64,000 nt of DNA from Methanolobus sp. (GTDB lineage: Archaea; Halobacteriota; Methanosarcinia; Methanosarcinales; Methanosarcinaceae), in assembly GCF_016278365.1 (NCBI RefSeq), contig NZ_JADQBZ010000002.1, forward strand, positions 179,507 through 243,506, read 5' to 3'. The position numbers were made by a program, and so were the translations under genes. Each line of letters opens with the position of its first letter. The first letter of the stretch is position 1. Below are positions 31,590-37,943 of this stretch, in pieces. The notes below the pieces were generated by a model. The model ran no database searches and had not been told where the DNA came from. It saw only the letters and a list, made by a program, of their open reading frames with translations.

Positions 31590-32375
31590 ATGAAAAGACC
31601 GATTGTTGAAATACTGCTTTCATCAGAGAAGAGAAAAAAGACACTTATGCTATTACAGGATGGGCCCAGGGAGATGGAAGCTATCCTGAGATCACTGGAT
31701 ACAACCAGAACAGCGCTGCTTCCACAGATGAAAGTATTAAAGGAAAGGCACCTTGTATCCCAGCACGATGACATTTATGAGCTGACTACAATTGGGAAAT
31801 TGATCGTCAAGGAAATGGCATCCTTTTTAAAAATTGCGGAGACATTTGGCGAGAACTCAGATTATTTAGGAACACATTGCATTGATTTTATTCCGGAGTA
31901 TCTTTTAGAGAAACTACCTCTACTTGGTTCTTATGATGTAATTAACATTCCCATATACGAGATGTTCAATCCGGATATAGAAATGTACCAGAAAGCCTTG
32001 AAGTCGAAATACTGGTTTGAGGCCAGTTCTGTTCTCTACCCCACATTTCATGACTTTTACGTTCAGATGATAGAACATAACATAGATATATCGGTCATTA
32101 TCACCCGGGACTTTTACGAAAAGGCTAAAGAGGATTATTATGATCACTTAAAAGAGATAGTTGATCTTGAATTCATCTCACTATACGTATATCCCGGTGA
32201 TCTTGGTTTTGCATCTCTTATTGTTACTGATGAATGTATTCGTTTCAGACTGTTCACACACGAGCATATATTAGATAGTAAGAAACTGCAGATATGTGGA
32301 CCTGCTGCCCTTGAGTGGGGAAAAGAACTGCTTGAATACTACAGGCAGCAATCTACAATTATAACTCAGGTCTAA
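31590..32375 (+). CDS. FilR1/Msr-type winged-helix transcriptional regulator
   Basis: 261 residues. The N-terminal winged helix (KRKKTLMLLQDGPREME, then TTRTALLPQMKVLKERHL and YELTTIGKLIVKEM) is followed by the FilR1 middle domain (PF08350-type; DFIPEYLLEKLPLLGSYDVI, FEASSVLYPTFHDFYVQM). Methanosarcina Msr proteins of this family control methanol and methyl-sulfide methyltransferase genes, and FilR1 responds to a signalling pathway. A TATA-like promoter lies upstream (ATCTTATATG). It converges with the CheB-CheR gene. Confidence 0.9.
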   Translation: MKRPIVEILLSSEKRKKTLMLLQDGPREMEAILRSLDTTRTALLPQMKVLKERHLVSQHDDIYELTTIGKLIVKEMASFLKIAETFGENSDYLGTHCIDFIPEYLLEKLPLLGSYDVINIPIYEMFNPDIEMYQKALKSKYWFEASSVLYPTFHDFYVQMIEHNIDISVIITRDFYEKAKEDYYDHLKEIVDLEFISLYVYPGDLGFASLIVTDECIRFRLFTHEHILDSKKLQICGPAALEWGKELLEYYRQQSTIITQV

Positions 32376-34373
32376 AGATGTTTGGTCTATTCAGTATTTT
32401 ATCTGACGCTCAGTGGTAGATACTGAATAAACATTACCATCCTCATCTGCCAGAGGGGTAGATGTCACCCACACATCTATTATACGGCCGTCTTTAGTGA
32501 GTCGTTGGGTACGATAAGTCTGCGGGATCTCAGCCTGAATTAGCTTTTTCAATGTAGCTGATTCTTCGTCTTTTCGGTCCTCCGGGATCATGCTGCTAAT
32601 ATTCATAGAAAGTGCTTCATCTTCGTTCCAGCCATACATATTCTCAGCCATAGGGTTCCATGCCATGATGTTACCCTCCATATCCTGCAGAACTATAGCA
32701 TCCACAGAGTCCTGCACCACCACGGACAGGCGGCGCAGTGTCTTTACCTGTTCCTCCTGCTTCTCCTTTAGTCTGGTGATCTCAGTAAATGTGATCACAG
32801 CACCTTCAACTTCATTTTTCAAGGAGAGATATGGCCGGATGGCCATGACATACCATTCACCTGCATCAGTACTGACTTCAATATCCACAGGAACAAGGCT
32901 ATCCAGCATGCCCTGTATGTCCGGTATCAGATTGTTATAGCCTGATATGTTTGAAACGGTATGCTTGATAGGCCTTCCTACATCTGTAGGTATCAAATTG
33001 ATCACTTTCGTGGCTGCAGGTGTAAAGCGCCGGATACGCAACTGGTTATCCACAATAATAATACCCACATTTGTTGAAGCCAGTATCTTGTTCGTCTCCT
33101 CATTAGCTTCAGACAGCTCTCCAATCTTGGTCTGCAGTTCATTGTTTACAGTGATCAATTCCTCGTTGACGGATTGCAGTTCCTCCCTGGAAGTCTCCAG
33201 CTCCTCGTTCGTGGATTGGAATTCCTCGTTCATGGACTGCATCTCTTCATTGGAGGATTTGAGCTCCTCATTGGAGATTTCCAGTTCCTCATTAGCAGAT
33301 TTGAGATATTCCTCTGTGGTCCTCAGCTCTTCTTTCAAGGCTGCAACGCTTTCCTCCTCGCTTTCGTTAACTGCATCTTTCTCTTTATGGAGTACGGGTT
33401 CTGAAGGTATTTCAAAGGTGACAAGGAACAGTTTTTGGTCACCAGCCTCTTCTAAAGGTCGCACTTTTAAATTGACGATGGTAAAATCACCATTTGTCTT
33501 AACCCGAAGTCCGGAACGGGTTACCTGCTCTTTATGGACCACTGACTTGCGCAGGGCTGCAGTCAAAGCCTCCTTAAGCCCTTTACGCGCCATCTTCAGG
33601 ATATTTTGACTAGGCTCACCTGAAGGTAATCGTAGATATGGACCGGTCTCTCCCTGGAAATAGAGGATATCACCACGTTCGTCGACCAGCACACCTGCCG
33701 GAGCGTACTCCTGCAGCATCCTTTTTTCTGTCAGTTCACGCAATTGAAGTTTATTGCCGCCTGAAGGTTTTCTTGAGGGTTCCTGCGGTATACCTTTTCC
33801 CTGGGAAGATGAAAGGAAAGTTTCTATCGAATAGGGGCGGGGAATCGCTTTGCTTTGATATAGCCGGGACTGGCGGTCTACTGTATCAAAGAGATTAGAG
33901 AATTCTCCAATGCTCTCGGAAGAGCCAAGTAATAGGAATCCACCCGGATTCAGCGCATAATGGAACATAGGAATGAGCTTATTCTGCGTTTCCCTGTTCA
34001 GGTATATCAGCAGGTTACGGCAGCTGATCAGGTCCATTTTGGAGAACGGAGGATCCATGATCAGATCCTGTTCTGAAAAGATGATCATATCGCGGATGTT
34101 CTTTTCAATGCTATAGGTGTCGAGTTTGGGATCATGGACAAAATAGCGCTTTAGTCTTTCAGGTGAGACATCTGCTGAAATATTGGCAGGATACACGCCT
34201 TTGCGGGCCTGCTCAATTGTCCGGCTATCAATATCGGTGGCAAACATCTGTACCTTATATTTTTGCTTCAGCTTTTCCATCTGTTCCTGAAGAAGAATGG
34301 CGATTGAGTATGCTTCTTCTCCGGTGGAGCAACCTATCACCCAGACGCGGATCATCTGGCCTGGAGATTTATT

Positions 34374-35253
34374 GAGCTGGTTTCATAAGTATAAATACTC
34401 CTTTTCCCAACATTATTATGGGGATTTGAATGGGGTTTGAAGAACTCTCAGATGAACAGTGGAAGTTTATTAAACCGTTTTTACCACCACAACCTATAAC
34501 CGGAAGAAAGAGAGCTGATGACCGTAAGGTCATCAATGGCATTCTGTTTGTCCTGGCTACAGGTTGCAGGTGGAGAGACCTGCCACCTTGCTATGGTTCG
34601 GGTGTTACTGCGTGGAGAAGGCTGAAAAAGTGGTCAGAAGAAGGAATATGGGAACAGATCATAGAATCCCTTCGGGATTCCGCTTACCATGATTCTAAGT
34701 TCTCAATGGAAACGGTGTGTGTTGATAGCAGTTTTATAGAAACTAAAAAAGGGGAGAAGATTCCGCTTACAACGGCCACAAGAAAAAGAAAGGTATTAAG
34801 ATTCATGCTTGTGTAAGTTGCGAAGGTTTTCCTCTTACAATTCAAATATTTTGCGGGAAAGATTATGATAATCATCATTTCCTCGAACTTATGAAAGATG
34901 TCAAGATAAGAACCGATGGAAGACCAAGAACAAGACCACTAGAAGTTCTGGCAGATCCGGCTTATGATGATGTGAAGATAAGACAGTATCTAAGGTCTAG
35001 AAGGATACAAAGTAACATTCCAATGAATCCCAGAAATACGAAAACAAGGAAAAGGGGAAGACCTACAAGATTTGATTCTGTATCCTACAATCGAAGAGGA
35101 GCGATTGAACGATTTTTTGGATGGCTAAAGATGAGATTTAGAAGATTGGTGATTAGATATGAAAGACTTAACGTAGTGTTTAAAGGACTTTTAGATATTG
35201 CATGTTTTATGGTGAGTTGGAAAAAGATATAAGGGGGGTTTTGAAACCAGCTC
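34374..35253 (+). mobile_element. IS5-type insertion sequence (880 bp)
   Basis: Ends are GAGCTGGTTTCA on the left and its exact reverse complement on the right (12 bp). It is flanked by the 3-bp direct repeat ATT (34371-34373 and 35254-35256). It encodes a two-frame DDE transposase. It lies inside the CheB-CheR gene, in the opposite direction. Confidence 0.93.
34430..35232 (+). CDS. IS5-type DDE transposase in two frames
   Basis: The first frame (34430-34816) encodes the N-terminal DUF4096-like part (LSDEQWKFIKPFLPP, LATGCRWRDLPPCYG) and the first catalytic Asp in VCVDSSFIETKKG. Reading then needs a -1 shift at the A6G4 run (about 34746-34755), giving EDSAYNGHKKKKGIKIHA. The second frame holds the next Asp (ADPAYDD) and the Glu (RRGAIERFFGWLK). 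The combined length is about 267 residues, normal for the family. Programmed -1 shifting at such runs is known in IS5 relatives; a disabling mutation is the alternative. Confidence 0.88.
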
Positions 35254-36255
35254 ATTGTTAAAGAGAGTGGGAATCGCATGTGTCTGAAGCGCTTCAAAGA
35301 CCTTGGAATTACGGAAGAAACTTGTGACACCAATTAACAGGTCAAGGAAAAGTGCCTCTATTTCCTCAGGTTTCTGTTGCAAGTAGTGCGCGTACCCGTC
35401 TATACGTTTTATATTGTTGACGATCATGCGACGCCTGATACGTCGGTCTATGGTCTTATGTTTATATTGGGAAAAGTCGTGGCCCGTCTGAGTGAGCAAC
35501 AGATGGAAGATACTTTTCATCGCTTCCTCAGTACTGGGAGAGGACTGGAATTCATCTTCATACATATGAGATACATATTCCCGGAGTTTAGCTGGCATCT
35601 CGCCCGGTTTCAGGATATAGTCGACCAAACCTGTGTCAATAGCACTTTTCGGCATTCCGTTATATTCACTATGTTCCGGGCTTTCCGCCATTACCATACC
35701 GCCTTCAGCCTTGATAGCCCGCACACCCATTGTGCCATCACTGCCGGTGCCCGAGAGCACAATACCAATAGCACACTCCTTCTGATCAGATGCAAGAGAA
35801 CGGAAAAAAGAGTCTATAGGCAGACGATAGCCATGTTCCTCAGCCGGCTCTAACAAATTCAAGAGACCATCTATAATGACCATATCCCAGTTGGGAGGAA
35901 TAACATATACATTATCGGGTTTTACAACCATCCTGTCCGTGACTTCATATACCTGCATTTTTGTATAACGCCTGATGATATCGGAGAGCATACTTTTATA
36001 ATCTGGTGCCATGTGTTGCACCAGAACAAAGGCCATGCCTAATTTATCATGGGATATCGCTGAAAAGAACTCCTCAAATGCAGATAGCCCACCGGCAGAT
36101 GCTCCAATGCCTACAATAGGGAACTTGCCATTGGAGAAGCCTTGAGCATCCTGAGAAGGTTTGTTATTTTCAGATGTCTCTAATGTAGCAGATCCTGATT
36201 CCTTTTTTACGACTTGCGCCTTCTTTTCGCTTGTAGCTTTCTTGTTTGCAACCAT

Positions 36256-36654
36256 AGTATTAATCCTTGAAATGCAGATTTCCAGGGTAAGTATACAATA
36301 ACAGGATGTACTCCAATGATATTATGATAATATTCTATTTGCTTACTATTAGTAATCTTTCTCATTCTCCTGATAAATGCTTTACTTTAAATTATAGCAG
36401 GGAATCAATGCAAGAGACTAATTCTGTTAAATAAAAATAATTGGGAACTTGGTTAAAATAAGACATTGGATTTTCAATGATAACTCGAGGTAATTGAATA
36501 GTCGGTAGTTTTATATGAACTACTTTATATTTATAATAAAAAATGAAACTATCTTGAAATATGACGTATAAATACTGTTGCGAATTTCCATATAATGCCC
36601 AGCGCATCAGTAAGCAATTTTAAACTTGCTAATTAAGACCTTAATGTAAAAAGA
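36256..36654. other. AT-rich intergenic sequence before the structured element
   Basis: About 400 nt with many TATA-like stretches (for example around 36523-36540). A minus-strand frame at 36392-36607 has no ribosome site and AT-driven composition. I see no gene. Confidence 0.5.
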
Positions 36655-36953
36655 GTAACCTAATAAAAATAACATTACCTCTGTTATTAATCAGAGGTTA
36701 GGTTAAATATAACAGGTTACTTATTACAACTTGCGGGCAATGGGGTGCTCGCAAACGCGGGAGTGGATTAATCGAGAGATGTTGGGGAACATCTCGGATT
36801 CGCAAGGAGAGAGGCGCCTTAAAGCGTGGTGGTTTCCAGGCGCCTCATCCTACCTCTCAATTGAAACTAGGGGTAAAAGTGCTTAATGGTATAAAAACCA
36901 TTCATGGTAAAAGTTATTTGATCTTGCTCAATCGTTTATTCACTTACGATTGA
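36655..36953. ncRNA. Candidate structured RNA with serial hairpins
   Basis: In an AT-rich gap lies a GC-rich island with ordered hairpins: GTAACCT/AGGTTAC (36655/36714) enclosing ACCTCTG/CAGAGGT; TTGCGGGCA/TGCTCGCAA with loop ATGGGG (36731-36754); GAGATGTT/AACATCTC with loop GGGG (36776-36795), extended by AATC/GATT; AGGCGCC/GGCGCCT (36812-36845), flanked by GAGAG/CTCTC; AATGGT/ACCATT (36885-36902); and CAATCGT/ACGATTG near 36929-36952. No open frame covers it. The strand is uncertain. It does not match tRNA, RNase P, SRP or riboswitch cores that I know. Confidence 0.65.
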
Positions 36954-37151
36954 TTAATTAACGTGGGTTTCAAGTCGAGACAATGTTATATTACCCTTAC
37001 ATATTATTTTTTAATGAGATTATAATTTCAGTTTGCTTTATCCTTATCTTTACAAGTAGTAGGGTTCACGTAAAGTTATCCGCTCTGTAATTCATTTGAA
37101 ATCAGTTTGATCTCAGAGAAAAGAGAGAACGATAGTTGAATTTAATAGGAA

Positions 37152-37943
37152 TTACATTTCAGTTATTGGTGTTGAATCTTTCAGATAATGATCAAAGAGG
37201 TCTTTTCCCCATTTAAGCGCATCTTCTGTACTGCATAAGATATACTTGCTATCAAAGTCACCATCTTTCTTTAGTGGGTTTATGACAATATGATAATCAT
37301 CAAATGTAAAGAACAGGAAATTCATTTTTTTGTTGTAAACATATAGTTTAAAATAGCCACTTTCGATGACTAATTTGAAGTATTCATAATATTCAGTTCT
37401 TACTTTATCCAACAGATTCCCAGACACAATATAATTTATAGTTATGCCATTCTCTATCATCTCAGTGAATCTTGTTTGATAATCCGGATAAAAAGTGTTA
37501 CCAACTGAATAGACTGACTCGGTTATTTTATGTTCATGATATCTTTTGTGCATAGAATACAAATCTGTCAGGCGAGGGTTTATAATCTCATGGCTTCTCA
37601 GCTCATTAATTCTTTTAAGCAGATCAGGTGGAATAAAATCAAAGTTATGAGTACCCCAGTACTCAGTATCTACATCCAGAACTTCAAGAGTATCCACTAA
37701 CGGGCTCATCTCATCAACTAACAATTTACCAATGGTTGTCAGGTCATAGCTATCATCAGAGTGAGTAACCAGATAATGCTCCTGAAGTATCTTTACTTGA
37801 GGTAGTAGTGCCTGCCTGTTAGTTTCAAGAGCCTTGAGGAGGGTCCCCATCTCCTTTTTGCCATCCTGTAATAATAAGAGCATATTCTTTCTCTTTTCAG
37901 ATGCAAACATTACATCAAGCAATGATCTTTTCATTTGCTGCAC
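37152..37943 (-). CDS. FilR1/Msr-type winged-helix transcriptional regulator
   Basis: 263 residues, a paralogue of the gene at 31590. The winged helix is at about 10-75 (EKRKNMLLLLQDGKKEMGTL, YDLTTIGKLLVDEM), and the FilR1 middle domain follows (FDFIPPDLLKRINELRSHEI, SVGNTFYPDYQTRFTEMI). The end (WGKDLFDHYLKDSTPITEM) is diagnostic of the family and is also seen in the two remnants of this window. It lies next to a kinase and response regulator on the same strand, so it may take part in the same control circuit of methanogenesis genes. Confidence 0.9.
   Translation of the reverse strand: MQQMKRSLLDVMFASEKRKNMLLLLQDGKKEMGTLLKALETNRQALLPQVKILQEHYLVTHSDDSYDLTTIGKLLVDEMSPLVDTLEVLDVDTEYWGTHNFDFIPPDLLKRINELRSHEIINPRLTDLYSMHKRYHEHKITESVYSVGNTFYPDYQTRFTEMIENGITINYIVSGNLLDKVRTEYYEYFKLVIESGYFKLYVYNKKMNFLFFTFDDYHIVINPLKKDGDFDSKYILCSTEDALKWGKDLFDHYLKDSTPITEM

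Follow-up and report, generated by a model that had tools for sequence, protein, structure and literature searches.

A multicopy, covarying structured RNA family restricted to some Methanolobus species, very probably that of the cold-induced sRNAs of M. psychrophilus R15

A GC-rich island in an AT-rich intergenic gap of a Methanolobus sp. genome (contig NZ_JADQBZ010000002.1) raises the question of whether a structured RNA is encoded there and, if so, of what kind. The window, i.e. the whole stretch of DNA analysed, comprises 64,000 nt, and the gap that encloses the island spans 896 nt (36256-37151). In agreement with the original prediction of a local GC jump within a 0.9-kb AT-rich gap, the GC content reaches 0.56 at 36750-36849 vs. 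0.24-0.31 on the left and 0.26-0.31 on the right. The segment 36640-36970 folds far more stably than its dinucleotide shuffles, none of 100 of which equalled it (z of -6.4 for the + strand and -8.1 for the - strand), and the conserved core by itself yields a z of -4.0. As had been noted, the neighbours are regulators and kinases, namely CheB/CheR, a FilR1-type regulator, a histidine kinase and a response regulator. The CheB-CheR-PAS gene (- strand) is present in two parts (35191-36255 and 32391-34355), interrupted by an IS4/5-family transposase that itself consists of two reading frames on the + strand (34430-34816 and 34891-35232). A second FilR1-type regulator (31728-32375), with a short N-terminus as listed, adjoins this split chemotaxis gene. 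The features of the locus are as follows.

36647-36690, + strand: predicted upstream promoter boxes, A-rich at 36647-36651, A-rich at 36665-36671 and ATTAA at 36686-36690, spaced by 18-20 bp
36697-36709, + strand: putative BRE/TATA element GTTAGGTTAAATA, ending 20 nt upstream of the core
36730-36859, + strand: conserved RNA core, matched by covariance model R1 with 139.5 bits (E 4e-32, genome search)
36731-36754, + strand: hairpin 1, 9-bp stem with loop ATGGGG, varying in sequence from copy to copy with paired changes
36776-36795, + strand: hairpin 2, GAGATGTT-GGGG-AACATCTC, with G-C/A-U covariation under the GGGG loop
36811-36846, + strand: hairpin 3, GAGGCGCC/GGCGCCTC enclosing the near-invariant apical AAGCGTGGTGGTTT (36822-36835)
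36866-36953, + strand: less conserved downstream region with hairpins and TATAAAA (36890-36896)
37152-37943, - strand: FilR1-type regulator gene (PF08350 + PF25213), 3'-to-3' with the RNA

The island is not a single-copy sequence. Its own genome holds 15 matching places, counting the island, and their common part lies at approximately 36686-36856; the covariance model R1, built from 12 copies, detected 16 copies in the same genome (E 8e-35 to 4e-8). A covariance search of 186 genomes identified the family in 11 of the 27 Methanolobus genomes (10 besides its own) at 2-30 copies each, and found no copies in the other 16 Methanolobus genomes or in 26 other genera of Methanosarcinales; a weak match in a genome of genus g5 (E 1.8e-4) was not counted. 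Meanwhile a motif scan of 84,980 species returned 41 contigs, 40 of which belong to Methanolobus or an unnamed Methanosarcinaceae. The remaining one, an Acidobacteria contig with a short-pattern match, was rejected as a family member, the match being ascribed to chance because the covariance model did not recognise it, and viral contigs gave no match to the motif pattern. Several copies, one tandem pair among them, occupy orthologous positions in the present species and in strain R15 (see below). Tandem copies are frequent, with a shorter second unit directly behind the first. In M. halotolerans many copies (loci L071, L077, L081, L082, L089, L090 and L091) form such pairs, in which the second unit belongs to a separate, shorter type whose hairpin 1 is strongly reduced. 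In two species a TIR-domain protein gene lies just 3' of a tandem RNA pair (L011, 5462-6025; L114, 3005-3634), the domain being assigned by a Pfam match for the L011 protein and by similarity to that protein for L114.

Comparison of the copies revealed a common unit layout, i.e. the promoter-like AGGTTAAATA, then some 20 variable bases, then a core of roughly 130 bases with three conserved hairpins, of which hairpin 1 is the most variable. In the set of 52 matches, the alignment of which was made to the covariance model and hence leans towards the structure, 95.4% of the cells pair and both sides have changed in 23 of the 28 pairs. An independent MAFFT alignment of 37 copies gave 93.0% and 12 of 28, respectively, with a covariation score of 0.225 vs. 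0.131 for shuffled alignments (none of 500 reached the observed value) and at most 0.098 for slid partners. Hence the covariation among relatives that had been proposed as a check is found well above both controls, and the three-hairpin structure is under selection. RNAalifold by itself puts hairpin 2 in the wrong place because three copies have a shifted version of it. The counts of G-U vs. A-C combinations, tried as a test of the strand, did not differ significantly (34 vs. 23).

The strand is indicated by what precedes the core. The positions of the upstream boxes are kept across 62 copies from several species, and the distance from the end of the TATA element to the start of the core is 19 nt in 49 of these copies and 20 nt in 8. 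A 96-bp promoter weight matrix matched 77 times in the scanned loci, a set enriched for RNA copies; all the matches lie at RNA copies, including diverged ones missed by the covariance model, and 127 kb of shuffled sequence gave none. Among such diverged copies in R15, one at L113:1492 (2.928 Mb) has an intact promoter signature and no model match, and another at L122:2413 has an intact signature near a weak model match. A strict palindrome pattern for the distal box recovered two copies plus others at chance level and was of no use by itself. The promoters of R15 are reported, in the main text of the study concerned, to sit 19-22 nt from the transcription start (PMC5378194). Judging from its position, the putative promoter therefore places the RNA on the + strand with a start near 36730, and boxes plus BRE/TATA appear to form a dedicated promoter for each copy.

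This bears on the further details of the original prediction. The loops ATGGGG and GGGG are both present on the + strand, and the idea that C-rich loops on the - strand pair with ribosome sites is not supported, as the promoter assigns the RNA to the opposite strand. The proposed series of six or more stems is borne out as regards the strong folding and the three conserved hairpins. The first of these stems (36654-36721), in contrast, overlaps the promoter, since the start is set near 36730, and is unconserved in other copies; the hairpins beyond 36860, which were the last two of the series, fall outside the conserved core. The region 36866-36953 may be the 3' part of the RNA or a terminator. 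TATAAAA occurs in most copies some 20-40 nt 3' of the core, as a candidate terminator, 3' hairpin or TATA box of the opposite strand.

Known classes of sequence do not account for the locus. No Rfam 15 family was found in the window at gathering or permissive thresholds (best chance match, E 1.6), nor was any tRNA or tmRNA. A small protein gene was rejected, given that the copies differ in length modulo 3 and that the 37 aligned ones have no frame in common, which agrees with the initial impression that no protein frame explains the island. H/ACA and C/D guide RNAs were rejected on alignments inspected by eye, where loops and linkers are near-invariant and neither an ACA end nor C/D boxes are seen. 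A viral origin was dismissed as well, viral contigs lacking the motif and a search with a neighbour protein finding no viral relatives. Thus the candidate, being multicopy, covarying, apparently equipped with its own promoter and without an Rfam match, represents a genuine structured RNA family that is limited to some Methanolobus species.

By dRNA-seq of M. psychrophilus R15, Li et al. (2015) detected "nine highly conserved" sRNAs that are induced by cold and preceded by a "cold box", according to the main text of that paper (PMC5378194). Genome G044 was taken to be R15, based on its RNase J, which matches PDB entry 5haa ("Ribonuclease J") over 447 residues without mismatch; chain 5ws2, near-identical to 5haa, carries the name MPY-RNase J. 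This genome contains 24 copies of the present family, of which exactly nine score above 127 bits, the next one scoring 114. Nine copies to set against the published sRNAs lie at 214415, 602121, 760138, 1537334, 1863142, 2445669, 2839934, 2934053 and 3071990. About nine highly conserved copies would be expected if the two sets are the same, as would a conserved motif upstream of their promoters, and the latter was found too, in the form of boxes fixed in spacing and exclusive to RNA copies among the scanned loci. As far as the main text of the 2015 study describes them, its sRNAs are likewise small intergenic RNAs with a conserved motif upstream of the promoter. Since the copies above 127 bits are as many as the published sRNAs, the family very probably is that of the nine cold-induced RNAs. 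The main text gives neither structure nor sequence of the sRNAs, nor a copy number beyond nine, and it says nothing of tandem units, of relatives in further species or of FilR1 genes (PMC5378194). No earlier description of the structure, size and spread of the family was found in the literature. The claim of novelty consequently divides: the description of the family appears to be new, and the 2015 study was probably the first detection of some of its members.

As to what the RNA does, the following course of events is proposed. Transcription from the upstream boxes and BRE/TATA element would start at approximately 36730 on the + strand and produce a core of about 130 nt, or an RNA of about 240 nt from two tandem units. 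As the promoter very probably is the cold-responsive one of R15, the RNAs would be made mainly at low temperature and, being present in bulk, could act as a sponge or platform to which a protein or the ribosome binds. Copy number, structure, covariation, promoter sequence, distribution and the link to FilR1 genes are established, and transcription in the present species, cold induction and protein binding are inferred. A bulk sponge is preferred because loops and linkers hardly vary among the 10-30 copies that a genome carries and because the most conserved loop lacks a perfect complement at other sites of the genome. Taken as a whole, the reading of the family as a multicopy, cold-made sRNA with its own promoter, acting through binding of a protein or the ribosome, as a platform or sponge, and not by antisense pairing, is considered probable, and its part concerning bulk production of a protein- or ribosome-binding RNA in the cold is put forward tentatively. 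A wider picture, in which 10-30 near-identical genes with a private promoter form a cold-response system whose G-rich loops bind a regulatory protein or the ribosome and which spread together with an expanded FilR1 set, seems rather doubtful.

The best surviving alternative is that the RNAs are trans-acting antisense (sibling) sRNAs, the G-rich loops and linkers of which pair with C-rich stretches of several mRNAs and block translation or alter stability, in the manner of sRNA154 of Methanosarcina mazei. The loops GGGG/GTGGGG and the linkers are indeed conserved and unpaired, and archaeal sRNAs of such size and action are known (review PMC5867862). However, in genomes G000 and G056 every exact 12-mer complement of the apical loop falls at an RNA copy; in R15 one site, near the contig end, is unassigned. 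Pairing of the loops with the start regions of FilR1 mRNAs also showed no preference over 70 other genes (P 0.4-0.97), which favours binding of a protein or the ribosome. Pairing with the 16S tail gave energies, calculated without controls, that are weak to moderate. Antisense action through short or imperfect pairing is possible, and the antisense explanation in general is regarded as unlikely.

FilR1 genes are also central to the idea that the RNA, transcribed towards the 3' end of the regulator gene, acts in cis, read-through antisense transcription or a shared terminator setting the mRNA level of its neighbour. Far more RNA loci than expected have a FilR1 domain within 600 bp (6/15, 8/15, 8/18 and 2/10 in four genomes vs. 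0.2-0.4), mostly 3'-to-3' and often with an equal gap of about 100 bp, and the copy numbers of FilR1 and RNA correlate across 27 genomes (Spearman 0.73, phylogeny ignored). On the other hand, over half of the RNA loci lack a FilR1 gene at that distance, and the similarity of some copies extends past the core, in L013/L014 to +250 and into the 3' end of FilR1, so that joint duplication accounts for part of the association. Action in cis therefore seems improbable as the function of the family.

A match to a known repeat or mobile element had been named in advance as refuting the RNA, and the island does match a dispersed repeat, except that the thing repeated is the RNA gene itself. It is very improbable that the family represents, transcribed or not, a MITE/REP-like non-autonomous mobile element with hairpins serving transposition: the many dispersed copies, the imperfect palindromes, the position of some copies within or beside IS-rich regions and the duplication of more than 1.3 kb (86-96% identity) shared by R15 copies L108 and L110 (near 1537334 and 2445669) speak for it, yet similarity between paralogues stops at -31 to -106 and +103 to +251 without common ends, copies in different species share orthologous positions, the promoter keeps its spacing in the absence of terminal repeats, and viral contigs have no copies. 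The L108/L110 duplication is possibly a mobile segment. Given the variable ends and the kept orthologous positions, a MITE, an IS200-605 derivative and a REP were all rejected, and the family is not a hopping repeat.

Among archaeal structured RNA families, such a high copy number combined with tandem units and a promoter of its own is unusual. Dictyostelid amoebae possess numerous Class I RNAs, which are preceded by an upstream element. Like the Methanolobus family these constitute a lineage-restricted small RNA class (PMC7919456), but they belong to an unrelated lineage and are likened to it by description. Sibling or multicopy sRNAs of bacteria, such as those of Neisseria (PMC5362039), likewise come from several similar genes in one genome, part of them adjacent, from which the Methanolobus family differs by 10-30 copies in most carriers and an archaeal promoter. 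Within the same archaeal family, sRNA154 and sRNA41 of Methanosarcina mazei and other methanoarchaeal sRNAs are likewise intergenic and structured; their reported mode of action is antisense pairing (PMC5867862). The genome searches gave no Methanosarcina-wide match to the Methanolobus family.

The present analysis adds structure, copy number and relatives to RNAs whose detection probably dates from 2015 and which are uncharacterised in the main text of that paper. With the covariance model, the promoter signature and the list of carriers and non-carriers, expression and deletion tests in cultured Methanolobus can be designed. The family also bears on the RNA-level cold response of archaea without CspA.
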